The notes below the pieces were generated by a model, which was given only the letters and a program-made list of their open reading frames with translations, was not told the DNA's origin and ran no database searches. A stretch of DNA of 64,000 nucleotides. It comes from Pseudomonas putida (GTDB taxonomy: Bacteria > Pseudomonadota > Gammaproteobacteria > Pseudomonadales > Pseudomonadaceae). Positions within the stretch are counted from its first letter, which is position 1. Every line of letters starts with the position of its first letter. Positions 2,489 through 50,090 of the stretch are shown here, piece after piece. The stretch lies in the NCBI RefSeq assembly GCF_026625125.1, contig NZ_CP113097.1, forward strand, positions 3,534,001 to 3,598,000, written 5' to 3'. The translations under genes were made by a program, and so were the position numbers.

Positions 2489-3481
2489 TCATGGCCTCCC
2501 CTGCGCAGGCTGTGCCCGCAACGGGCCAGCCACGGCTGCCAGGCTATGCCCCAAGGCCAGTAACAGCAAGGCCGCCCCCAGGGGCCACCAGAATAGGTCA
2601 CGCTTGGGCTGGTGGCTGAAGGTCTTCACGCTGTGCGGGGTGATCCGGTCCAGCGTGGCATACACCTGGGCCAGCGCGCCCCGGTCGTCGGCGCGGAAGA
2701 ACCTGCCACCGGTGGTGCGTGCGATGCCCTCCAGCGCTTGCAGATCGACCTTGTCTTCACCGCTGGCCTGGGGGTCGCCGATCCCAATGGCATGTACCAC
2801 GATGTTCCGCTCACTGGCCAAGCCTGCCGCGTGTGCGGGTGTGATCGCACTACCGGTGTCATTGCCGTCACTCAGTAGCACCATCACCTTTTCCTGCTCC
2901 TTGGCCTGATCCAGCAGCTTGATGGCAAGGCCAATGGCATCGCCTATGGCGGTGTTCGGCCCGGCCATGCCCACCCCGACTTCATCGAGCAGCAGCGAGA
3001 GACTGGCGTGATCGAGGGTCAGGGGCGACTGTGGGTAGGCGCCGGTGCCGAATACGATCAAGCCGATGCGGTCTTGCTTGCGCTGGGCGATGAAGTCGCG
3101 CACCACCGCTTTCACCGCGCTCAACCTGTCCACTTGCTGGCCATTGGCGTCGGTAAAGTCCTTGGCCTGCATGGACTGAGAAATATCGATCGCCAGCAGC
3201 ATGTCGCGGATGGGCTGCTCACGCTCGATGGCCTTTTCCACCAGTACGGGCCGCGCGCAGGCGGCCAGCAGAAGGCCCCATACCAGCAGGTTCAAAAGCA
3301 CTTGCCAGCGCCCACCCGAGGGTGGCGTGGTGCCGGGGAGCTGGTTCACCGCACGGCTCATGGCGAAGAAAAACGGCACCCGCAATGCGCTGCGCGCCTC
3401 GTGATAGGGGCGCATGAAGCGGTAGGCCAGCCAGGGCAAGGGCAGCAACAAGAACACCCACAGGTAATCAAACTGCCACAT
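2489..3481 (-). CDS. VWA domain membrane protein (BatA-like)
   Basis: A 330-residue protein. Two N-terminal hydrophobic stretches (YLWVFLLLPLPWLAYRF and a second near residues 60-80) precede a VWA domain with MIDAS motif DISQS (LLAIDISQSMQAKD). It ends with a hydrophobic helix (GAALLLLALGHSLAAVAG). This is the BatA architecture: a VWA domain held in the periplasm or at the membrane by flanking helices. It overlaps the upstream DUF4381 gene by 14 bases and abuts the VWA-TPR gene, so expression is likely coupled. The intact MIDAS suggests metal-dependent protein binding. Confidence 0.88.
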   Translation of the reverse strand: MWQFDYLWVFLLLPLPWLAYRFMRPYHEARSALRVPFFFAMSRAVNQLPGTTPPSGGRWQVLLNLLVWGLLLAACARPVLVEKAIEREQPIRDMLLAIDISQSMQAKDFTDANGQQVDRLSAVKAVVRDFIAQRKQDRIGLIVFGTGAYPQSPLTLDHASLSLLLDEVGVGMAGPNTAIGDAIGLAIKLLDQAKEQEKVMVLLSDGNDTGSAITPAHAAGLASERNIVVHAIGIGDPQASGEDKVDLQALEGIARTTGGRFFRADDRGALAQVYATLDRITPHSVKTFSHQPKRDLFWWPLGAALLLLALGHSLAAVAGPLRAQPAQGRP

Positions 3482-36935: not shown

Positions 36936-38615
36936 CCAGGCTGTGTGAAAACTCGCGGAATGCGTTGAAGGTCGTGGCTATCTAGGGGCGCTTGCAAAAC
37001 TGGCAGGAAATTGCCTGGATTAGCTCAGTTGGCCTCGCAAGGGTGCATCTGGCCGGTATGAGTCCTTCGTGGAGACTTTGGGGCCCCTAACTGGCGGCTC
37101 AGTAGGCCATTTCACCTTTTGAGCGCTTCGAGCAGCCCCCTGATGCCCAAGATGCTCATCATTCGCTTGAGGTTGTAAGCGAGCACATGGAGGCTCATTT
37201 CAGTACTGACCCTTGGCAGGGTCCTGGTCAGGAAGTGGGTCGCCCCCATCCAGTACTTGAGCGTTCCAAATGGATGCTCAACGGTTTGGCGGCGCACCTT
37301 CATTTTCCCCGGATCGTGCTCCAGTTGAACCTGCATCGAGTCGAGGGTCGCTTCATGTTCCCAGCGTTTCAACCGGCGCTCTTTGCCCGTCGTACATTGC
37401 TTGTGCATCGCGCAGGACTGGCAGCCCGAGAACCAATAAACATGCATCAGCATCCCGTCTTCCCAAGTTGAGTAACGCTTGGTCAGTAATTGCTCCGCAG
37501 GGCATCGATACTCATCCGATGCCGAGACGTATAGGAAATCCTGCTTGCCAAATCGACCTTCGGCTTTGCTGCTAGAGGTCAGTGGTTTCGGTACGAAGGG
37601 CGAGATTCCAGCTTGCTCACATGCAACGATTTCCGTGCCTGTGTAGTAGCCCCGGTCGGCAACGACATTCAGCGATTCAGTACCGATTTGGTCACGCGCT
37701 TGCTTCGCCATGTTGCTCAACTGGCCGCGATCATGACCGACATTCGTCACCTCATGTGCAACGATCAGATGGTGCTGATCGTCAACGGCCGTCTGCACGT
37801 TATAGCCAACGGTGCCACTGCCCCGACCACCAACTGACATGGAGCGAGCATCGGGATCTGTGAGAGAAATTTGTTTGTCTGGGGTTTGAAGTAGCTGCGT
37901 TTCAATGTCTTTGAGCTTCTGCATCTGCTGTTTCAGCGTTTCGATCTTCTCTTTCAGTCGCTCGGCCTTGGCCACAGCCACCTCCGGCATTGCCCGGTCC
38001 GCCGAATCCATCGCTGTCAGATAGCGCTCAATGCTCTGCTCGACTTGCTGCATACGGGCCTTCACCTTGGCCTGGGTGAAGTTACGGTCGCGATTGTTCA
38101 CGGCTTTGAACTTGCTGCCGTCGATGGCAATGATTGAGTCAGAGAACAGGTTGAGGTTGCGACAGAGGATCACGAACTGACGGCAGACACTGCGAATGGC
38201 TTTACCGTTGTCCTTGCGAAAGTCGGCGATGGTTTTGAAATCTGGAGCCAGACGCCCCGTAAGCCACATCAACTCGACATTGCGTTCAGCTTCACGCTCG
38301 AGCCGGCGGCTGGACTGAATGCGGTTTAGGTAGCCGTAGATGTAGATCTTCAGCAGGACCGCTGGATGGTAGGCCGGGCGACCTGTTGCTGCCGGATCGA
38401 CGCCTGCGAAACCGAGCGCGCTCAGGTCGAGTTCATCAACAAAGACATCGACCACTCGCACTGGGTTTTCATTGGTGATGTAGTCATCCAGGCACTCTGG
38501 CAGCAATGTGACCTGCGTCCGAGCTTCACCTTCGATGAACCGCTTCATGATTGTCCCCGCCACGATCACGACGGTCAGAAGGTTAGACAACTGCGGGCGT
38601 TTTCACACAGCCTGG
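36936..38615 (-). mobile_element. IS1182-family insertion sequence
   Basis: About 1.68 kb bounded by 17-bp perfect terminal inverted repeats: left CCAGGCTGTGTGAAAAC at 36936-36952, right GTTTTCACACAGCCTGG at 38599-38615. It holds one transposase gene on the minus strand. No convincing target-site duplication was seen in the immediate flanks. The exact outer base of each repeat is uncertain by one or two bases. Confidence 0.85.
37112..38548 (-). CDS. IS1182 family transposase
   Basis: A 478-residue DDE transposase from ATG 38548 (MKRFIEGEARTQVTLLPECL). It has the DUF772-type N-terminal domain (YHPAVLLKIYIYGYLNRIQSSRRLE, key part LLKIYIYGYLNRIQSSR), IIAIDGSKFKAV (first Asp), VVADRGYYTGTEI (second Asp) and the C-terminal TVEHPFGTLKYWMGATHFLT (Glu). 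The frame is complete, so the element may be active. Confidence 0.93.
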   Translation of the reverse strand: MKRFIEGEARTQVTLLPECLDDYITNENPVRVVDVFVDELDLSALGFAGVDPAATGRPAYHPAVLLKIYIYGYLNRIQSSRRLEREAERNVELMWLTGRLAPDFKTIADFRKDNGKAIRSVCRQFVILCRNLNLFSDSIIAIDGSKFKAVNNRDRNFTQAKVKARMQQVEQSIERYLTAMDSADRAMPEVAVAKAERLKEKIETLKQQMQKLKDIETQLLQTPDKQISLTDPDARSMSVGGRGSGTVGYNVQTAVDDQHHLIVAHEVTNVGHDRGQLSNMAKQARDQIGTESLNVVADRGYYTGTEIVACEQAGISPFVPKPLTSSSKAEGRFGKQDFLYVSASDEYRCPAEQLLTKRYSTWEDGMLMHVYWFSGCQSCAMHKQCTTGKERRLKRWEHEATLDSMQVQLEHDPGKMKVRRQTVEHPFGTLKYWMGATHFLTRTLPRVSTEMSLHVLAYNLKRMMSILGIRGLLEALKR

Positions 38616-40259: not shown

Positions 40260-40560
40260 GCCAAGAAATCAGATTTTGCCTCTTCCTTGTAGTCCATTTC
40301 CCAAACATACTCTCGCCGCACTTTTTCCGTTGCCGTCGCTTGGGCTGCGTTCTAGTCTCGGCGGGTCGTTGCTCATCAACGATACAGCTTTGACAGGCTG
40401 TGACGGCAAATAGTGTGCGGCCCCCTTATGGTGGCTGTACGTGCGGGCACGCTTGCGTGCGCCGGAACTTAGCTATTTCCGCCGGTCTGTCAACCCACGT
40501 ACAGCTGCCACCCTTCTGTTTGACAGCAGACAGGTGGCAGCACAAAAAAGGTAAATAGCT
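40260..40560 (+). promoter_or_regulatory. Structured 5' leader with mutually exclusive pairings (copy 1)
   Basis: Segments: A 40408-40414 (AAATAGT), B 40470-40478 (TAGCTATTT), C 40553-40561 (AAATAGCTA, ending in the A of the ATG). B pairs with C over nine bases, and with A over six Watson-Crick pairs plus one wobble. Other helices: TCGTTG/CAACGA (40366-40371/40377-40382); CAGC/GCTG around loop TTTGACAG (40389-40396); CTGTACGTG/CACGTACAG (40435-40443/40496-40504) enclosing hairpin GCACGC/GCGTGC; CTGTCAA (40487-40493) able to pair with either TTTGACAG (40389 or 40519); GCTGCCACC/GGTGGCAGC (40504-40512/40533-40541). The ribosome-binding site AAGG (40548-40551) is next to helix B-C. Confidence 0.8.
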
Positions 40561-40803
40561 ATGCTAAAGGCCGTCCCCGATCCACCCCACAACCACCACT
40601 CCCTCGAAGACACGATCATCCAGGCTGCGGAGTTCGCCCTGTGCGCGCAGAGCGTGGCGCAGCAGGCTGTTTCGCTACAGCCCAGAACGTCCGCCTCGGT
40701 TCTAATGATGGCCTCGATGCATGAGCTCGAGTCGCTACGCGTGCTGCTCGAATCAGCGCTGATCCAGCTGCAGATGCCGACCGAACCACGCACCCTGCAC
40801 TAG
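40561..40803 (+). CDS. DUF6124 family small protein (copy 1)
   Basis: An 80-residue, largely helical acidic protein: HHSLEDTIIQAAEFALCAQS then SVLMMASMHELESLRVLLES. The pattern matches DUF6124 proteins, found in many copies in pseudomonads, usually before a DUF3077 gene. It has no signal peptide or membrane helix. The start codon is embedded in helix B-C of the leader, so translation should depend on leader folding. The second copy (49440-49682) differs at only a few residues. Confidence 0.85.
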   Translation: MLKAVPDPPHNHHSLEDTIIQAAEFALCAQSVAQQAVSLQPRTSASVLMMASMHELESLRVLLESALIQLQMPTEPRTLH

Positions 40804-40947: not shown

Positions 40948-41211
40948 ATGACCCCAGATGACACCAAAGTTACTGTCGGTAAGACCACGTTCTACCAGGG
41001 TGAAAACCAGACCCATCCATTGTTTCGCATCGAAGCGGGCATCCCTTGCCAGAATGCCCGCGAACAGGCTTCAGAGCTGATGGGCTATGTGCGGGACCTG
41101 ACCATCGAAGGCTTGATGGACGGTAAACCACAGCTGATCTGGGCCTCGCACTACCTGAGTGCGTTGGCCAAAGCACTGATGGATGATGCCGAGCTGGGCA
41201 TGATGCACTAA
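40948..41211 (+). CDS. DUF3077 family small protein (copy 1)
   Basis: An 87-residue protein from ATG 40948 behind GGGAGG: KTTFYQGENQTHPLFRIEAG then ASELMGYVRDLTIEGLMDGK and WASHYLSALAKALMDD. This is the DUF3077 pattern, unknown function, Pseudomonas-specific. An upstream GTG (40897) is possible but lacks a comparable site. It follows the DUF6124 gene after 144 bases with an 8-bp hairpin. The pairing of these two genes in both copies implies a joint role. Confidence 0.88.
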   Translation: MTPDDTKVTVGKTTFYQGENQTHPLFRIEAGIPCQNAREQASELMGYVRDLTIEGLMDGKPQLIWASHYLSALAKALMDDAELGMMH

Positions 41212-41393: not shown

Positions 41394-42314
41394 TCAGGTC
41401 GCTCCCTCATTATCCTCAACATGGTCGATATGAGCGAAACGTTCGACCAGGAAGTCGATAAGGCTGCGCACGCGCGTTGAAAGATGTAGCTGCTGGGGGT
41501 ACACCGCATAGACATCCGCACACGTCGGGGTCTCATTCTCCAGTACCAGGCGCAGCCGGCCGCTGCGTACGTAACGGGCGATATCCCACTCGGCACGCAT
41601 CAGTATCCCGTAACCCTGCAATGCCCAGTTCAGTGCGACCTCCCCGTCGTTGCAACCCAAAGCAGCGCGTACCTTGATGTTTTGCGTACGGCTACCCGTG
41701 GTGAAACTCCATACGCCATAAGGTGTTTCGTTCTGGCGGATGAAGATGCAGTTGTGCTGCTGCAGATCCGACAGGCGCGTGGGAATGCCGTGCTTTTCCA
41801 GGTACAGCGGCGAGGCGCACAACAGTCGGCGGTTGGAAGCTATCTTGCGAGCATGGAATGCAGAATCCGGCATCGTGCCGAAGCGGATTCCAAGGTCAAA
41901 ACCGTGAGTAGCCAGGTCCAGTGGGTGGTCGGTGATTTCAAGCTGGACTTCCACTTCCGGGTAGCGGCTGTAGAACGCCGCCAACGCCGGGCCGATATGC
42001 CGCCGACCAAAACCGAGGGAGGCATTGACGCGAATCAGGCCTTTGGGCGTCGCGCGACTGCTGACGACCATCTGCTCCACCTCGTTGATTTGCGTGAGGA
42101 TCCGCGCAGCGTGTGAAAAATACAGCTCACCCTCCGACGTCAGGCTCATCGCGCGGGTGGTGCGATTGACCAGGCGCACACCAAACCGTGCCTCCAAGGC
42201 CGCCAGCCGCTTGCTCACCGCCGGTGGCGTTATGCCGAGCTCGCGCGCAGTGGCCGCGAGGCTGCCTTGGGTGGCGAGCAGATGGAAAAAGGAAAGATCC
42301 AATGTCTGGTTCAT
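41394..42314 (-). CDS. LysR family regulator (DmlR-like)
   Basis: A 306-residue regulator with helix-turn-helix LSFFHLLATQGSLAATARELGITPPAVSKRL (key part SLAATARELGITPPAVSK) and a substrate-binding domain. It is divergent from the tartrate/D-malate dehydrogenase gene by 181 bases, the arrangement of dmlR-dmlA in E. coli. It probably activates the dehydrogenase-dctA-ttdAB genes in response to D-malate or tartrate. Confidence 0.88.
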   Translation of the reverse strand: MNQTLDLSFFHLLATQGSLAATARELGITPPAVSKRLAALEARFGVRLVNRTTRAMSLTSEGELYFSHAARILTQINEVEQMVVSSRATPKGLIRVNASLGFGRRHIGPALAAFYSRYPEVEVQLEITDHPLDLATHGFDLGIRFGTMPDSAFHARKIASNRRLLCASPLYLEKHGIPTRLSDLQQHNCIFIRQNETPYGVWSFTTGSRTQNIKVRAALGCNDGEVALNWALQGYGILMRAEWDIARYVRSGRLRLVLENETPTCADVYAVYPQQLHLSTRVRSLIDFLVERFAHIDHVEDNEGAT

Positions 42315-42495
42315 GCCTGGCTCAGCACAGTGAATGGGCCTACAGAATGGGCCTGGCGATTAGTAACCTCAAGTAATTTATCTAGTTATTTTGCATGACT
42401 TATTGCCTTTGGATTTCTGATTACACTCTGCTCACAACCTGTCCCTCGGTGTGATCGACAGGGAAAACAAGAAAATCCAGAGAAGGTAGGTGTCC

Positions 42496-43551
42496 ATGAA
42501 TAGTTACAACATCGCAGCTGTCCCTGGCGACGGAATTGGCATTGAAGTGATTGCCGCCGGCGTTGAGGTTCTCAAAGCCCTGTCGAAAAAATCCGGCTTC
42601 GAAATGACCTTCAAGGATTTTGACTGGAGCTCGGAGAAGTATCTGCAGACTGGCCATTACATCCCCGAGGGTGGCCTGGAAGCATTGAAGGCCTTCGACG
42701 CGATCTTCTTCGGCGCGGTCGGTGCCCTGGACGTACCGGACCATATTTCCTTGTGGGGCCTGCGCTTGCCGATTTGCCAGGGTTTCGATCAGTACGCCAA
42801 TGTGCGCCCGGCACGCGTGCTGCCCGGCGTGAAGAGCCCGTTGCACAACGGCGACCAGATCGACTGGGTGGTGGTGCGGGAGAACTCGGAGGGTGAATAC
42901 TCCGGTAATGGTGGTCGCGTACACCGCGGCCTGCCGGAAGAAGTGGCCACCGAGGTATCGGTATTTACGCGCGCCGGTGTCGAGCGCATCCATCGCTTTG
43001 CCTTCCAGCTGGCGCAGAGTCGCCCACGCAAGCACCTGACCATGGTGACCAAATCCAATGCCCAGCGCCATGGCATGGTGCTGTGGGATGAGATCTTCTA
43101 CGAAGTCGCCAAGGACTTCCCGGATGTGAGGATCGACAAGGAGCTGGTCGACGCTGTCACTACGCGCATGGTACTCAAACCGGCCACCTTGGATGTGATC
43201 GTGGCCACCAACTTGCACGCCGACATCCTGTCCGACCTGGCCGCCGCATTGTCTGGCAGCTTGGGTATCGCCCCCACCGCCAACCTCAACCCATCGCGTC
43301 AATTCCCCTCGATGTTCGAGCCGATTCACGGTTCAGCCTTCGACATCACCGGCAAAGGCGTAGCCAACCCGATTGCGACCTTCTGGACCGCGGCGATGAT
43401 GCTTGAACACCTGGGCGAGGTGGCAGCGGCAAAACAGCTGATGTCAGCTATCGAAGCCGTTACCGAAAGCGGCCTGCACACCCCTGATCTGGGCGGGACA
43501 GCGACTACCCGGCAGATCACTGATGCAGTGATCGCGCTCATAAATCGCTGA
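42496..43551 (+). CDS. Tartrate/D-malate dehydrogenase (isocitrate dehydrogenase superfamily)
   Basis: A 351-residue beta-decarboxylating dehydrogenase of the DmlA/TtuC type. N-terminus: NIAAVPGDGIGIEVIAAGVE. Then FFGAVGALDVPDHISLWGLR, the substrate arginines in YANVRPARVLPG, metal ligands in LVDAVTTRMVLKPATLDVI, and NAD preference region EPIHGSAFDITGKGVANPIA (key Asp-Ile). It oxidises D-malate and/or tartrate, feeding pyruvate, glycerate or oxaloacetate. A GTG six bases upstream is an alternative start. Confidence 0.92.
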   Translation: MNSYNIAAVPGDGIGIEVIAAGVEVLKALSKKSGFEMTFKDFDWSSEKYLQTGHYIPEGGLEALKAFDAIFFGAVGALDVPDHISLWGLRLPICQGFDQYANVRPARVLPGVKSPLHNGDQIDWVVVRENSEGEYSGNGGRVHRGLPEEVATEVSVFTRAGVERIHRFAFQLAQSRPRKHLTMVTKSNAQRHGMVLWDEIFYEVAKDFPDVRIDKELVDAVTTRMVLKPATLDVIVATNLHADILSDLAAALSGSLGIAPTANLNPSRQFPSMFEPIHGSAFDITGKGVANPIATFWTAAMMLEHLGEVAAAKQLMSAIEAVTESGLHTPDLGGTATTRQITDAVIALINR

Positions 43552-43648
43552 CTGTTCAGAACCGTAATCGAGACATAGCGCCGAGAGGGGGGCCGTTGAC
43601 CTGCCTTCTTGGTATCGCCTGACAAGAATAAAAAATCAGGGTCCTGTC

Positions 43649-44989
43649 ATGAAAAGCCTTCTGGGTAAGTTATATGTACAAGTATTGATCGGCGTCGCCG
43701 CCGGCATAGCGCTGGGTGTGTTTTGGCCGCAGATCGGCACCGACCTGAAACCACTTGGCGATGCGTTCATCAGGCTGATCAAGATGGTGTTTGCACCCAT
43801 CATTTTCGCCACGGTGGTGCTGGGCATCGCCAAGATGGAAAACATGAAAGAGTTGGGGCGCGTGGGCGCCCGGGCACTCATTTACTTTGAAGTGCTTTCT
43901 ACCTTCGCCTTGGTGCTGGGGCTCCTGGTGGTCAACTTCGTGAAGCCTGGCGCGGGAATGAACGTTGATGCCGCACACCTCGACGCCTCCAGCATCGCCA
44001 CCTATACCGTGGCTGCGCAAAGTGGCGACGGTATCACTGAGTTCTTGATGAAAATCATCCCGGCCAGTGTCACCGATGCGTTTGCACAGAATCAGATTTT
44101 GCCGATCCTGCTGTTTTCCACCCTATTCGGTATCGCCTTGGCGCATCTGGGGCCACGTGGCAAACCCATGGTCGATGTGCTCGAGTCTTTCTCTCACGGC
44201 ATGTTCCACATCGTCGGCATGATCATGCGCCTTGCACCGCTGGCAGCCTTTGGCGCGATGGCGTTCACCATCGGCAAGTACGGCCTGGGTTCGATCGTGT
44301 CGCTTGGCAAGTTGGTCGCGACCATGTACGTCACCTGCTTCCTGTTTGTCGCGGTGGTACTCGGCTTTATCGCACGCTTGTCCGGCTTCAGTTTGTGGAA
44401 GTTCCTCAAGTACCTTCGCGAGGAACTGTTCACCGTGCTGGGCACCAGTTCGTCTGAGTCGGTGGTACCGCAATTGATGAACAAGCTGGAAAAGGCCGGG
44501 GTCTCCAAGCCGGTGGTGGGCCTGGTGATTCCGTCTGGGCTGACCTTCAACCCCGACGGCCAGTGCATCTACTACACAATGGCCGCGATCTTCATCGCTC
44601 AGGCCACGAACACGCCGCTGAGCCTGATGGACCAGCTGATCGTGCTGGGCGTGCTACTGCTCACCTCCAAGGGGTCGGCCGGCGTAACAGGCTCGGGCTT
44701 CATTACCCTGGCCGCGACCCTGGCGACCATGGACAAGATCCCGGTGGCCGGCATGGTTCTGCTGCTCGGAATAGATCGTTTCATGTCCGAGGCCCGCGCC
44801 ATCACCAACACCATCGGCAATGCGGTCGGCACCGTCGCCATCGCCAAATGGGTTGGCGCCTTGGATGGCGAACGAATGAAACAGGTCCTCGATGGTCGGG
44901 CAGTCGAGAAGGCAGAAGAACGCCCTTCCAACACCGTGCCTGCCACGCCCGCTGCCGTTTCCGACAAAAAAAACCTTGTGATGCCCTGA
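43649..44989 (+). CDS. dctA: C4-dicarboxylate/H+ (Na+) symporter
   Basis: A 446-residue DAACS-family transporter. Landmarks: N-terminal helices with [19 protein letters not shown], the first re-entrant loop [13 protein letters not shown] (serine-rich motif), [20 protein letters not shown], and [14 protein letters not shown]. It imports malate, succinate, fumarate and, in this context, probably tartrate. It lies between the dehydrogenase and ttdAB on the same strand. Confidence 0.94.
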
Positions 44990-44999
44990 GGAAAACACC

Positions 45000-45908
45000 G
45001 TGGATAACCTAGAAAAAGAACATGCCGTGTCGTCGCTGACCGACACCTTGGCCAGGTTCACCGCTTATATCGGCAAGCGTCTGCCCAAGGACGTCAAAGC
45101 CAAGACTGCGAAGCTGCGTGCGGCAGAGACCAACCCACTGGCCATCGCTGTGTACGACTCGATGGCCGACAACCAGGAATACGCCGACAAGCTGAACCGC
45201 CCCAGCTGCCAGGATACCGGCGTGATTCAGTATTTCATCTCGGCGGGCGCGCGGTTCCCGCTGCTCGGTGAAATGGAGGGCATCCTGGAAGGTGCCACCA
45301 AGCAGGCCACTGTCCACGGGCCCTTGCGCCACAACGCAGTGGAAACGTTCATCGAAAAGAACACCGGCACCAATACCGGCTCGAAGATCCCTTGGCTCGA
45401 CTGGGAGATCATCCCCGATGCGGACTACGCGATCGTCGACGTGTACATGGCCGGTGGTGGCTGCACCCTGCCGGGCTCAGCCAAGGTGCTGATGCCGGGG
45501 CAAGGTTACGAAGGGGTGACCGAGTTCGTCTTCGATGTGATCACCTCCCGCGGCATCAATGCCTGCCCGCCACTTCTGGTGGGGGTTGGCGTATCGACCT
45601 CGGTAGAGACTGCGGCCCGCCTGTCGAAGAAGGCCATCCTGCGCGAGGTGGATTCCAGCCACCCCAACCAAAGCGCGGCAATGATGGAGAAGCTGCTGGA
45701 GGAAGGCTTGAACGAAATCGGTATCGGCCCCCAAGGCCTGACCGGTAATAGCAGCGTGATGGGCGTGAACATCGAGTCATCGGCGCGTCACCCTTCGACC
45801 ATTGGCGTGGCCGTTTCCACCGGCTGCTGGGCGCACCGTCGCGGCAAGATCCGCATCAACGCCGACCTTTCCTATGACATCCTCTCCCATGAAGGCGTAG
45901 TACTGTGA
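45000..45908 (+). CDS. ttdA: L(+)-tartrate dehydratase alpha subunit / class I fumarase N-terminal type
   Basis: A 302-residue iron-sulfur hydro-lyase subunit. Candidate cluster cysteines lie in [23 protein letters not shown] and [12 protein letters not shown]. It starts at GTG 45000 with GAGG eight bases upstream and overlaps the beta-subunit gene (GTGA). With TtdB it dehydrates L-tartrate to oxaloacetate; a two-subunit class I fumarase is the alternative. Position next to dctA and the tartrate/D-malate dehydrogenase favours tartrate. Confidence 0.9.
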
Positions 45909-46525
45909 ACAGTCCAGCGAAAAAGATCATCAACACCCCGATCAGCGACGAAGACTTGGCTGGCCTGAACGTCGGGGATGTCGTTTACCTCACTGGCCAA
46001 TTGGTGACCTGCCGTGACGTGGCTCACCGCCGCCTGATCGAGCTCGGTCGCGAGCTGCCGGTGGACCTGCGTGGCGGCGCGATCTTCCATGCCGGGCCGA
46101 TCGTGAAGAAAAAAGACGATGGCAGCTTCGAAATGGTGTCCATCGGCCCGACCACCAGCATGCGCATGGAAAAGTTCGAGAAGCAATTCATCGAGCAGAC
46201 GGGTGTGAAGCTGATCGTCGGCAAGGGCGGCATGGGGCCGGAGACCACCACCGGTTGTCTGGAGAACAAAGCCGTACATGCGGTGTTCCCTGGTGGCTGC
46301 GCGGTACTGGCGGCAACTCAGGTCGAAGAGATCGAACGCGCCGAATGGCAGGATCTGGGCATGCCGGAAACCCTATGGGTGAACCGCGTACGCGAGTTCG
46401 GGCCGTTGATCATTTCCATCGATACCAAAGGCAATAACCTGTTTGAGCAAAACAAGGTGCGTTTTAACGAGCGTAAAGGTTCGGTGATCGAAAAGATCAA
46501 CTCACAGGTTCGCTTCATCAAGTGA
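45905..46525 (+). CDS. ttdB: L(+)-tartrate dehydratase beta subunit / class I fumarase C-terminal type
   Basis: A 206-residue partner subunit from GTG 45905. It has the swivelling-domain motifs [23 protein letters not shown] (key part [17 protein letters not shown]), [23 protein letters not shown] and [14 protein letters not shown]. The four-base overlap with ttdA implies translational coupling and equal stoichiometry. It ends the tartrate operon, with a long inverted repeat 33 bases downstream. Confidence 0.92.
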
Positions 46526-46830
46526 TGTAGCAGCGTGGCGGTTTTCCGTTGCAGAACGCGAAACCTGCTTCCTCAGGTTTCGCTAACGCCCTCGTAACGC
46601 TGCTCCCGCAGATCATCACTGCCACGTGCATCTGCGCCCAGCATTCAGGTTGCAGAAAAAGGCGAAGGTATCGCGACGAGCAGTCAATGGACGGCACCAC
46701 GCCAAGCAGCTCCATGACGCGGGTCTCATGCCTGAAGCGATTGCCGAAATCAGTACGGGCCGCCTCCTCTACTTCCCACCTGTGAACGAGATCCACCGCG
46801 CACTTTGACCAGATTGGCCCTGCGCACGGG
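46526..46830. other. Intergenic region after ttdB
   Basis: About 300 bases between two convergent transcription units. Apart from the hairpin at 46558-46583, I see no gene that can be supported. Confidence 0.6.
46558..46583. terminator. Terminator-like hairpin between ttdB and the OYE gene
   Basis: GCGAAACCTG-CTTCCT-CAGGTTTCGC, a perfect 10-bp stem, 33 bases after the ttdB stop. There is no T-tract on the plus strand; it may act as a transcript-end stabiliser. Confidence 0.5.
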
Positions 46831-48087
46831 TCATCTTGCGTCTCTCAGGCCGTTGTAATGCTCCGACCTTTCACTCCATTTACGATACTGGCGAGTACGA
46901 AAAGCCATGTTGAGCTGTTGCAGGATCAGCGCGCGCAGCGGCGACACGCTCGGGTCGGGCTTTTTACCCCGGCTCAGTTTGCGCAATTGAAACTTCACCA
47001 CCGCCATGTTCGCCAAGGCCGAGATGGCTTTGTTTTTCCACGTGATCGGCGGTAATTCAGGGGCGTTGTCTTTGCCCTGCAACCAGGCACGAGGCAGGTG
47101 CGGATCGATGGCTAACGCCGTTCCGATACCCACCATGTCCACCCCGCTGTGCACGACGCTTTCGGCCACCGGGTGGCGACGTATACCGCCGGTGACCATC
47201 ACCGGCATTCTGGCAACGGTTTGGAGATCACGGGCAAACTCGACGAAATACGCTTCGCGAGCCAGGGTGCGACCATCGCGTGCGTGCCCCTGCATGGCAG
47301 GTACTTCGTAACTGCCTCCCGACAACTCCACCATGTCTACGCCCAGGTCATTGAGCAGCTCAACAACCTTTTTCGCGTCATCGGTGGTGAATCCTCCGCG
47401 CTGAAAATCGGCGGAATTGAGTTTGACCGCCACCGCAAAATCCGCAGAAACCACGGCCCTTACCGCCTTGACGATTTCCAGCAACAGGCGCGCCCGGTTT
47501 TCCAAAGAGCCACCCCACTGGTCGTTCCGTTGGTTGGTCAACGGCGAAAGGAACTGGCTCAACAAATAGCCATGGGCGGCGTGGATCTCCACACCGGTGA
47601 ATCCGGCTTGTTCACCCAGGCGAGCGGTGTTGGCGAAGCGCTGAATAACTTCTTCGATCACGCCAGGGGTCATCGCGTGAGGCATGGCAAAACGCTTGGA
47701 CATGTTGCCCAGTTCCAGCGGTACGGCTGATGGTGCCCAGGTTTTTTGCCCAAGATTGGACTGCATCTGCCGCCCTGGGTGGTTGATCTGCAACCAAAAC
47801 TGCGCACCGCCGGATCGACCAATACGCGCCCAGCGCTTGAACTTGTCCAGTTGCTGATCGTCCTGTAATACCACGCCCCCCGGCCCGGTCATGGCACGGC
47901 CGTCGACCATCACATTGCCGGTGATGATAAGGCCGGCACCACCGTCCGCCCACGCTTGATACAAACGCATGAGTGCTTCGGAAGGCGCTTGGTCGGCATC
48001 CGCCATATTCTCTTCCATGGCGGCTTTGGCGATTCGGTTCTTGACGGTCGAACCGTTGGGAAGCATCAGGGCGTCGAACAAATTCAT
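46831..48087 (-). CDS. NADH:flavin oxidoreductase of the old yellow enzyme family
   Basis: A 418-residue FMN-dependent TIM-barrel enzyme starting at ATG 48087. Landmarks: LPNGSTVKNRIAKAAMEENM (N-terminal strand), WLQINHPGRQ, EIHAAHGYLLSQFLSP (His-x-x-His-Gly active-site region), QWGGSLENRARLL, and late MVTGGIRR for FMN phosphate. It lacks a C-terminal iron-sulfur/FAD domain, so it is a single-domain ene-reductase type. It is controlled by the adjacent MerR gene, as the shared operator sequence indicates. Confidence 0.9.
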   Translation of the reverse strand: MNLFDALMLPNGSTVKNRIAKAAMEENMADADQAPSEALMRLYQAWADGGAGLIITGNVMVDGRAMTGPGGVVLQDDQQLDKFKRWARIGRSGGAQFWLQINHPGRQMQSNLGQKTWAPSAVPLELGNMSKRFAMPHAMTPGVIEEVIQRFANTARLGEQAGFTGVEIHAAHGYLLSQFLSPLTNQRNDQWGGSLENRARLLLEIVKAVRAVVSADFAVAVKLNSADFQRGGFTTDDAKKVVELLNDLGVDMVELSGGSYEVPAMQGHARDGRTLAREAYFVEFARDLQTVARMPVMVTGGIRRHPVAESVVHSGVDMVGIGTALAIDPHLPRAWLQGKDNAPELPPITWKNKAISALANMAVVKFQLRKLSRGKKPDPSVSPLRALILQQLNMAFRTRQYRKWSERSEHYNGLRDAR

Positions 48088-48123
48088 GGAGCAGTCCTCA
48101 ACTGGGTATGAGGCCACCTTAAG

Positions 48124-48142
48124 CTTGAAGTTAACTTTAAGG
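48124..48142. promoter_or_regulatory. Candidate MerR-type operator of the oxidoreductase gene
   Basis: CTTGAAGTTAACTTTAAGG, centred on the palindrome AAGTTAACTT, 37 bases upstream of the oxidoreductase ATG. A near copy (CCTTGAAGTTGACTTTAAACC) lies upstream of the merR gene. Long, slightly over-spaced dyads like this are typical MerR targets. Confidence 0.7.
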
Positions 48143-48274
48143 TCAATGCCTTCTTCAAGGTCAGGCGATTTTCAATCGCTCCTTACGGTATCGAAAATGT
48201 GTTCAATTGCCCAAAGCCGTGGCTGAGGCCGTGATGGCGGTGCTTTCTGGCGACAACGGGGCGCGCTGAGTCTG

Positions 48275-48754
48275 TCAGGCCCCGGACGCCTGGCGGGCGT
48301 TTTTTCTGGTGGAAGACTTCACCGCAGGTTTGCCGGAGGCTTGGCCAACCCCTTCTTCGCGCAGACGATTGATCAGCATTTGCGCATTGTCGGCACACGC
48401 CATGCCCTCGGGCTTATCCTCGATGCCCTTGATGACGAGCAGAAGTTGCGCTTTGTTCTGTGCGAGCCGTTGCTCCAGAACAGTGATTTCCTCCACCTTC
48501 TGTTTGAGTCCTGAGAGCAACTCGTCATGCCGCCAGCCACTGGCGTACATCGGCATCAATTGCCGGATCTGCTGCAAAGAAAAACCTGCCGCTTGTGCGC
48601 CGGTTATCAGTTCCAGAACCCATTCGGTATCAGGCGCATAGTCGCGGTATCCATTGGCCTTGCGCTCGACGGAGCTGATCAAGCCACTGGCCTCGTAGAA
48701 TCGGATGCGTGACGGAGTCAATCCACTGATTTTCGCCAGTTCGCCTATTCTCAT
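48275..48754 (-). CDS. MerR family transcriptional regulator
   Basis: A 159-residue regulator. MerR DNA-binding domain at the N-terminus (MRIGELAKISGLTPSRIRFY then EASGLI), GYRDY wing, and a long dimerisation coiled coil (LLSGLKQKVEEITVLEQRLA). The tail holds one Cys (ACADN), too few for a classical metal site, so the inducer is probably an organic or redox signal. It is codirectional with, and upstream of, the oxidoreductase, and both promoters share the same dyad. Confidence 0.92.
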   Translation of the reverse strand: MRIGELAKISGLTPSRIRFYEASGLISSVERKANGYRDYAPDTEWVLELITGAQAAGFSLQQIRQLMPMYASGWRHDELLSGLKQKVEEITVLEQRLAQNKAQLLLVIKGIEDKPEGMACADNAQMLINRLREEGVGQASGKPAVKSSTRKNARQASGA

Positions 48755-49133: not shown

Positions 49134-49439
49134 AACGCCAAGAAATCAGATTTTGCCTCTTCCTTGTAGTCCATTTCCCAAACATACTCCCGCCGCACTT
49201 TTTCCGTTGCGGTCGCTTGGGCTGCATTCTAGTCTCGGCGGGTCGCTGTTGTTCAGCGATCGGCTTTGACAGGCCGCGACGGTATTATGCATACGGCTTG
49301 CCTTCAATGGCGGCTGTACGTGCGGGCACGCTTGCGTGCGCCGGAACTTGCATAGTCCGCCGGTCTGTCAACCCATGTACAGCTGCCACCCTTCTGTTTG
49401 ACAGCCGATAGGTGACCGCCTAATTGAAGGTACTATGCA
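49134..49439 (+). promoter_or_regulatory. Structured 5' leader with mutually exclusive pairings (copy 2)
   Basis: Segments: A 49284-49291 (ATTATGCA), B 49348-49356 (TTGCATAGT), C 49432-49440 (ACTATGCAA, ending in the A of the ATG). B-C pair over nine bases; A-B pair over eight with one wobble. The hairpins TCGCTG/CAGCGA (49243-49248/49254-49259) and CGGC/GCCG round the loop TTTGACAG carry compensatory changes against copy 1. CTGTACGTG/CATGTACAG (49314-49322/49374-49382) keeps a G-U pair. CTGTCAA and both TTTGACAG elements are unchanged. The GCTGCCACC/GGTGGCAGC helix of copy 1 is weak here. Confidence 0.8.
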
Positions 49440-49682
49440 ATGCTCAAAATGGTCCCCGATCCACCCCACAACCACCACGCCCTCGAAGACACGATCATCC
49501 AGGCTGCGGAGTTCGCCCTGTGCGCGCAGAGCGTGGCGCAGCAGGCTGTTTCGCTACAGCCCAGAACGCCCGCCTCGGTTCTGATGATGGCCTCGATGCA
49601 TGAGCTCGAGTCGCTACGCGTGCTGCTCGAATCAGCCCTGATCCAGCTGCAGATGCCGAACGAACCACGCACCCTGCACTAG
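49440..49682 (+). CDS. DUF6124 family small protein (copy 2)
   Basis: An 80-residue protein like 40561-40803, with changes such as Ala to Met at residue 4, Ser to Ala at 14, Ser to Pro in RTPASV and Thr to Asn near the end. The ATG overlaps helix B-C of its leader by one base, exactly as in copy 1. GAAGG precedes it as ribosome-binding site. Confidence 0.85.
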   Translation: MLKMVPDPPHNHHALEDTIIQAAEFALCAQSVAQQAVSLQPRTPASVLMMASMHELESLRVLLESALIQLQMPNEPRTLH

Positions 49683-49826: not shown

Positions 49827-50090
49827 ATGACCCCAGATGACACCAAAGTCACTGTCGGTAAGACCACGTTCTACCAGGGTGAAAACCAGACCCACCCATT
49901 GTTTCGCATCGAAGCGGGTATCCCTTGCCAGAATGCCCGCGAACAGGCTTCAGAGCTGATGGGCTATGTGCGGGACCTGACCATCGAAGGCTTGATGGAA
50001 GGTAAACCACAGCTGATCTGGGCCTCGCACTACCTGAGTGCGTTGGCCAAAGCACTGATGGATGATGCCGAGCTGGGCATGATGCACTGA
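49827..50090 (+). CDS. DUF3077 family small protein (copy 2)
   Basis: An 87-residue protein identical to copy 1 apart from Asp to Glu in GLMEGKPQ. Same GGGAGG ribosome-binding site and same intercistronic hairpin (GCGCTGTG 49710-49717, CACAGCGC 49735-49742). Strong conservation of both proteins contrasts with the altered leader segments. Confidence 0.88.
   Translation: MTPDDTKVTVGKTTFYQGENQTHPLFRIEAGIPCQNAREQASELMGYVRDLTIEGLMEGKPQLIWASHYLSALAKALMDDAELGMMH

Follow-up and report, generated by a model that had tools for sequence, protein, structure and literature searches.

Two closely similar leaders in the window, the 64,000-nt stretch of Pseudomonas putida DNA analysed here, are very probably C4-type antisense RNA modules, and many Pseudomonas genomes carry at least ten such modules, mostly privately addressed, ahead of small genes of unknown function. 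A bolder reading, to which we give a probability of roughly 45%, is that Pseudomonas chromosomes hold between 10 and more than 50 C4 switches as a diversified and largely insulated array. Every switch would have a private two-part address, kept in agreement at three sites, a bistable leader with a1b1 as an anti-C4 element, and small DUF3077- or DUF6124-type cargo; the whole would be a phage immunity circuit turned host repertoire. The element itself is already described, as C4 and c4-a1b1 in Rfam, and on sequence grounds it is the b' address and the multi-copy setting with linked targets that appear to differ.

A sequence-only reading had described the leaders as three-segment switches in which B pairs with A, leaving the start free, or with C, masking it. 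The parts of the two modules, as now assigned, are listed below in window coordinates.

40330..40358, plus strand: putative sigma-70 promoter of module 1, from reading the sequence (TTGCCG, 17 nt, TAGTCT)
40352..40404, plus strand: c4-a1b1 element (RF03163) of module 1, Rfam 49.1 bits, cut-off 46.7
40390..40396, plus strand: a1 target site TTGACAG of module 1, exact complement of a', the same 7-mer as the annotated P1 a1
40408..40414, plus strand: b1 target site AAATAGT of module 1 (segment A), 6-bp run to b'
40424..40515, plus strand: C4 antisense RNA of module 1 (RF01695), 66.8 bits, cut-off 45
40470..40478, plus strand: b' loop of C4, TAGCTATTT, module 1 (segment B), placed by Rfam model alignment and pairing
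40487..40493, plus strand: a' segment CTGTCAA of C4, module 1, identical 7-mer in the P1 C4
40520..40526, plus strand: a2 target site TTGACAG of module 1, exact complement of a'
40553..40561, plus strand: b2 target site AAATAGCTA of module 1 (segment C), including the A of the start codon
40561..40803, plus strand: ORF1 of module 1, 80 aa, begins MLKAVPDPP, without a Pfam or NCBIfam match
40948..41211, plus strand: ORF2 of module 1, 87 aa, DUF3077 (PF11275), E 8.2e-18
49207..49235, plus strand: putative sigma-70 promoter of module 2, from reading the sequence (TTGCGG, 17 nt, TAGTCT)
49229..49280, plus strand: c4-a1b1 element of module 2, Rfam 51.5 bits, cut-off 46.7
49266..49272, plus strand: a1 target site TTGACAG of module 2, exact complement of a'
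49284..49291, plus strand: b1 target site ATTATGCA of module 2, 6-bp run to b'
49303..49393, plus strand: C4 antisense RNA of module 2 (RF01695), 68.4 bits, cut-off 45
49348..49356, plus strand: b' loop of C4, TTGCATAGT, module 2, complementary to the b2 of module 2
49365..49371, plus strand: a' segment CTGTCAA of module 2, exact complements at a1 and a2
49398..49404, plus strand: a2 target site TTGACAG of module 2, exact complement of a'
49432..49440, plus strand: b2 target site ACTATGCAA of module 2, perfect complement of the b' loop
49440..49682, plus strand: ORF1 of module 2, 80 aa, begins MLKMVPDPP, 95% identity to ORF1 of module 1
49827..50090, plus strand: ORF2 of module 2, DUF3077, E 7.8e-18, 99% identity to ORF2 of module 1

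The mature C4 of module 1 probably spans about 40430-40512, judging from the GG at 40430 and the ACC ending at 40512. CTAGTCTC, from the promoter region of module 1, is found upstream in 7 of the 22 C4 modules of the genome. The putative promoters are preceded, at about 40285-40315 and 49165-49190, by blocks such as GTAGTCCATTTCCCAAA or ATCCTACG, which also accompany other C4 copies; the 9-mer ATTTCCCAA occurs upstream of 9/22 copies, with no occurrence in a control flank. The blocks may be a common operator. Between the modules (41394-48754) are genes that we take, by eye, to encode a LysR regulator, a tartrate-type dehydrogenase, a transporter, dehydratase subunits, a flavin oxidoreductase and a MerR regulator, and a 492-aa minus-strand ORF at 37112-38590, 1.7 kb upstream of module 1, looks by eye like a transposase.

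Among 4227 Rfam families searched with 40300-40620 at E values up to 1, C4 and c4-a1b1 were the sole matches, in a search that covers known families and to which an unfamiliar aptamer would be invisible. The leaders thus match motifs familiar from phages P1 and P7, where the sequence-only reading had known of no described motif, and a riboswitch-like element finds no support. Alignment to the C4 model, with its stems P1, P2 and P3, places segment B in the loop of stem P3. B is therefore the loop of a folded three-stem RNA, described in the accessible text of PMC5320573 as a processed antisense RNA in P1 and P7, rather than part of a bare cis attenuator. The address is also not single, as had been supposed: a'/a1/a2 form a second one, CTGTCAA having exact complements at both a1 and a2.

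The pairing that had drawn attention to the leaders was confirmed, with TAGCTATTT (40470-40478) perfectly complementary to AAATAGCTA (40553-40561) and TTGCATAGT (49348-49356) to ACTATGCAA (49432-49440). Between 40404 and 40563 there are four 9-nt complementary pairs, namely 40434/40497 and 40435/40496, which are neighbors in stem P1 of C4, the B-C pair, and 40504/40533, which joins the end of C4 to the stretch preceding ORF1; in the same stretch of copy 2 (49283-49442), B-C is the only one. Segment A is present and matches B as proposed, but it is weaker and slightly misplaced (AAATAGT at 40408-40414 and ATTATGCA at 49284-49291), and its longest run to B is 6 bp in each copy. Of the earlier interpretation, the match of B to C across the start region and a likely role in blocking translation are both supported.

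Phage P1 served as a positive control. Its GenBank record (AF234172) gives the order a1, b1, C4, a2, b2, icd, with a1 and b1 marked putative. Both a1 and a2 of the phage read TTGACAG, the window's 7-mer, and its C4 contains the same a'; its b2 complements C4 exactly, which the annotated b1 does not. The same Rfam library scores the phage C4 at 68.8 bits and its a1b1 at 51.0 bits. Because order, 7-mers and scores agree, the window modules fit the layout of the founding member, with a different b'. In P1 and P7, RNase P excises C4, which then works as an antisense RNA, according to the accessible text of PMC5320573, and RNase P release and a translational block are likewise given in the available parts of PMC5320573 and PMC8198154. 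Our modules share with the P1/P7 system (c4-icd-ant, immI) the Rfam model, the order promoter-a1-b1-C4-a2-b2-ORF, the a' 7-mer CTGTCAA and a b2 close to the translation start. In contrast to that system, they are chromosomal, present in many copies and altered in b'. The icd and anti-repressor genes of a P1-type immunity operon are absent downstream in the window, where an ORF1 without a Pfam family and a DUF3077 gene take the place of icd and ant.

Across 77 C4 copies from two genomes, on average 95% of the 14 pairs of stem P1 are formed, by several pair types (compensatory types were counted for this stem only). The base of the stem has the 5' edge ATGG in 69/77 copies and the 3' edge CCACC in 65/77, and we call it acceptor-stem-like. 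Of the RNase P processing to about 77 nt that characterizes C4, this base is the one sign seen in the sequence. Translational repression is the most likely role of the window modules, which would represent a C4 variant present in many copies and perhaps have a self-capture state.

The window's genome carries 22 C4 copies, all above the Rfam cut-off, and 16 matches to c4-a1b1 (RF03163), 11 of them above its cut-off, both window leaders included. A congener (G049) has 55 C4 copies, 52 above the cut-off. Among 59 genomes of the genus, the window's included, C4 is matched at E ≤0.001 in 54 and above the cut-off in 53, with a median of 17 copies per genome; 37 genomes have at least 10, 26 at least 20 and five have none. 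In a sample of 145 genomes from the order, again counting the window's own, C4 was found in 20, the other 19 carrying 1-6 copies, and none was found in 14 well-known control genomes.

The c4-a1b1 motif (RF03163) is listed by Weinberg et al. 2010, as is C4 for Proteobacteria and phages, in the accessible portion of that paper (PMC2864571), and the Pseudomonadales are named among C4 carriers in that of an Acinetobacter baumannii study (PMC5320573). The latter offers a likeness, many related C4-homologous RNAs per genome with a variable address: 21 related Group 1 sRNAs in one genome, of which 15 full-length ones were studied, with RNA-seq hints of processing. In the available text of that study the variability lies in the a' loop and a linked a1b1/a2b2 target set is not mentioned, whereas in the copies nearest to those of the window it is b' that varies most, and most Pseudomonas copies have their own targets. 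Pseudomonas C4 arrays with linked targets were not described in the mainly open-access literature that we consulted, as far as the accessible texts go (including PMC2864571, PMC8198154, PMC5320573, PMC9630843 and PMC12197685). What goes beyond known C4 is the high copy number (22 in the window's genome, 55 in the congener, median 17 over 59 genomes) combined with own-fitting targets.

This fit was measured in the window's genome (G000; 22 copies, the window's being L014 and L012) and in the congener (55 copies, weak ones included). The mean longest Watson-Crick runs to own and non-own targets are, in the two genomes respectively, 7.77 versus 4.30 and 6.89 versus 4.27 for b'-b2, 7.18 versus 4.68 and 6.87 versus 4.03 for a'-a2, 7.18 versus 5.40 and 6.96 versus 5.20 for a'-a1, and 6.05 versus 5.00 and 6.64 versus 4.92 for b'-b1. 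None of 10,000 permutations of run length reached any of these eight own means. Duplex energy upholds seven of these own-pair contrasts; the exception, b'-b1 in the window's genome, is not significant (997/10,000).

Copy by copy, the own b'-b2 run is uniquely longest in 16/22 cases in the window's genome and the own b'-b1 run in only 2/22; by duplex energy, own b'-b2 pairing is uniquely best less often (12/22, and 14/55 in the congener). When a2 and b2 are summed, 18/22 and 43/55 copies fit their own target better than any other, and in 4/22 and 12/55 the own target is tied or beaten; for a1 plus b1 a unique best fit to the own target is reached in only 8/22 and 16/55, and for all four sites together in 16/22 and 48/55. 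No b' segment occurs twice in either genome (22/22 and 55/55 distinct). There are 11 kinds of a' in the window's genome and 31 in the congener, counted from 7-mers cut at a set distance from where C4 ends, which may be shifted in copies with indels. Since one kind is common to nine copies of the window's genome, cross-talk is possible. Own targets are usually best and b' is always distinct, yet a' is shared, and insulation thus appears strong and incomplete.

Some copies depart from the common layout. L018 has a C4 of 65 bits, no ORF1 and a longest b' run to the b2 zone of only 5, and is possibly an orphan antisense RNA. L002 and L009 (G000:C1:5077965 and 5078495) are C4 copies about 530 nt apart whose ORFs begin MHAYPKPIQDPR, a variant head motif.

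Covariation was followed in 61 modules that closely resemble the window's and come from 35 genomes; they were obtained from 63 loci (10 own, 4 of 30, 29 and 20) by a pattern scan that allowed five errors and kept cases with PDPP near the start; L019 and L182 yielded none. The set contains 36 distinct b' loops, of which 27 pair with their own b2 over at least 7 bp, against 29 of 1260 non-own combinations; own pairing is uniquely best for 18/36 and best or tied for 28/36. For b1 the corresponding figures are 16/36 own and 44/1260 non-own, with 10 uniquely best and 19 best or tied. Runs to b2 of at least 7 occur in 47/61 modules, and their ends fall in the interval from 10 nt upstream to 3 nt downstream of the A of ATG. 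With the register kept, Watson-Crick pairs fill 133 of 184 b'-b2 cells and G-U pairs a further 18; a slide of 1-2 nt leaves 47-58 Watson-Crick pairs. These cells come from 23 non-redundant modules out of 32 that share a given loop ending and start distance. The covariation that had been proposed between the paralogues thus extends across genomes, own b'-b2 pairing standing above non-own, and chance pairing was rejected on the own versus non-own permutations and this in-register covariation.

The window's two copies present the same pattern at close range. Over 1 kb they differ at 5/7 positions of b1, 5/9 of b' and 5/8 of b2 and at none of the 21 a positions, and the 8-nt cores of B and C, which differ at 5/8 positions, keep their pairing. 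That the copies are nearly identical elsewhere, as had been claimed, holds with 49 differences at 977 other positions, the 21 a positions included, against 15 of 24 at b positions; Fisher's test gives 1.9e-13 for all b sites, which were picked for pairing after their differences had been noted. Within the two ORFs, 15 of 507 positions are changed. The b address has been rewritten at all three sites on a backbone that is little changed (about 95% the same) and, because a' is identical, b alone can separate the two copies.

Duplicated prophage relics, drifting neutrally and matching in address from recent common origin alone, might account for copies in which targets or ORF1 are missing (L018, L072, L103, L104 and L106) and for the fact that avoidance of b' sharing within a genome is not significant in the 61 modules (a b' is shared by 43 of 1775 pairs from different genomes and by none of 55 pairs from one genome, with 2608 of 10,000 shuffles as low). 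We consider such an origin highly improbable, given that altered addresses remain matched at two or three separate places, that the changes between copies 1 and 2 concentrate in b1, b' and b2, and that the same b' recurs across genomes. AACTTAGCTATTTCCG, for example, is found in 4/61 modules from four genomes, one of the same species as the window. Five loops recur in four modules each, from which it follows that addresses can outlast speciation, with the reservation that G358, one of the genomes concerned, belongs to the window's own species. In G358 the starts of the two modules are 2.2 kb apart, compared with 8.9 kb in the window.

Predicted folds of whole leaders suggest a possible second state. 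In these folds a1b1 captures a' and b' (at least 5 nt each) in 13/22 leaders of the window's genome and 34/55 of the congener, 47/77 in total and both window copies among them; when the upstream part is taken from another copy, capture falls to 1/110 and 5/275 (6/385 in total). Stem P1 (at least 10 of 14 pairs) forms in 8/22 and 18/55 own-leader folds, against 88/110 and 214/275 with a foreign upstream part, and is as a rule unformed where capture is predicted. The cost of the C4 fold over the best whole-leader fold has a median of 1.9 kcal/mol and is below 5 in 55/77 leaders; copy 1 stands at 9.4 and copy 2 at 0.9 kcal/mol, energies of 250-nt folds being rough. The earlier suggestion of an A-B state that frees the start is therefore plausible, with A redefined as a1 plus b1 and B as b' plus a'. 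Unlike these Pseudomonas leaders, that of phage P1 is predicted to fold as native C4 without self-capture, and self-capture accordingly remains a prediction only for every C4.

That capture is specific to the own upstream part, and that all parts lie within one short leader, would also suit an attenuator acting in cis only, in which B pairs with A or C within one molecule and no free RNA is ever made. This seems quite unlikely: the RNA adopts the C4 fold, whose acceptor-like base is conserved, the P1/P7 C4 is a processed antisense RNA in the accessible text of PMC5320573, and own-leader folds almost never pair either segment to the downstream target in cis (at least 5 nt in 0/22 and 1/55 for a' and in 1/22 and 0/55 for b').

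The antisense mechanism that we propose would run as follows. From the layout, a single transcript would carry a1b1, then C4, a2b2 at the start of ORF1, and ORF2. Before processing, a1b1 may pair with a'b' in the same transcript, as the predicted folds suggest, disrupting the C4 fold and leaving the start free, and the leader may thus be bistable. Alternatively, C4 would fold into a three-stem RNA exposing b' in a hairpin loop and a' in a junction and, by analogy with P1/P7, would be freed by RNase P. The freed RNA would pair a' with a2 and b' with b2 on the mRNA, masking the ribosome site or start codon of ORF1, as in P1/P7; ORF1 would then not be made, nor would ORF2, through polarity or coupling. 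Private b' and often also a' addresses would stop most modules in one genome from silencing one another.

The genes under this putative control are small. The pair had been named DUF6124-DUF3077; the second assignment stands, and the first gene of the window has no Pfam match, DUF6124 (PF19619) included, at a limit of E 10, above 0.1 of which HMMER filters drop most matches. Its alignment to the DUF6124 profile covers the first 11 residues only, and on both counts DUF6124 identity was rejected; no relation to DUF3077 was seen either. Its predicted structure is a helical hairpin (mean pLDDT 82). Among 71 ORF1s of the two genomes (all but L101 and the copies without ORF1, L018 in the window's genome and L072, L103, L104 and L106 in the congener), 31 match DUF6124, 3 Bro-N and 2 DUF3077, and the remaining 35 none of these; NCBIfam gave no family for any of the 71. 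A head motif, xP[DN]P[PR], lies within the first 14 residues of 53/71 and beyond residue 20 in none, a count that may be inflated by L012, L090 and L097, whose start codons were picked by hand over the script's. The codons of its core vary, and the constraint therefore seems to be on the peptide.

DUF3077 genes have a same-strand C4 within 900 nt upstream in 15/15 cases in the window's genome and 5/6 in the congener, and DUF6124 genes in 0/1 and 35/41; conversely, 15/22 and 40/55 C4 copies have a DUF3077 or DUF6124 gene downstream. Around the seven genes of these families without a listed C4, the Rfam C4 model found none (0/7). A PrrF sRNA gene adjoins two of the seven, one per genome (L225 489-637, L227 1-120), an iron-linked neighbor in place of C4. 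By sequence association, then, DUF3077 and DUF6124, families of unknown function, appear to be tied to C4 control. Homology between the two is not claimed: a profile comparison gave a probability of 96.7 only while a DUF6124 protein (L057) stood among the 19 "DUF3077" rows, and 54.8 with clean alignments from which it had been removed. One gene of the congener matches both models. A PDB fold search with the DUF3077 structure model, which was built on an alignment including L057, returned no match at E ≤0.001.

The cargo also bears on whether the true targets lie in trans, on related messages elsewhere such as those of incoming phages, the array then being a superinfection barrier. C4-DUF6124 modules do occur on viral contigs, with C4 just upstream in 30/30 DUF6124 loci, the Pseudomonas phage phiAH14b carries C4, and Bro-N proteins are among the C4-linked genes. 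The three Bro-N ORF1s are L056, L085 and L105, all in the congener, and 3/71 ORF1s match phage anti-repressor families; genes of this type are under C4 control in P1, which also speaks for the C4 assignment itself. On the other hand, most modules own a matched target, which a pure trans defense would not need, and the window's DUF3077 had no tblastn match in 50,697 phage records. A barrier of this kind is unlikely in our view. In the record of phiAH14b (L189), a 16.8-kb Pseudomonas phage with AlpA and Rha-like regulators, a C4 of 89 bits at 2999-3085 overlaps an annotated gene, and on two viral contigs (L199 and L204) a tandem pair of C4 copies precedes one DUF6124 gene.

In place of a single phage regulator, the Pseudomonas modules offer a naturally occurring library of antisense RNAs and matched targets, in which one can study how RNA addresses come to differ and still avoid cross-talk. 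A clear example of such divergence is the window's duplicate pair, with a backbone about 95% the same and a b address changed at all three sites.
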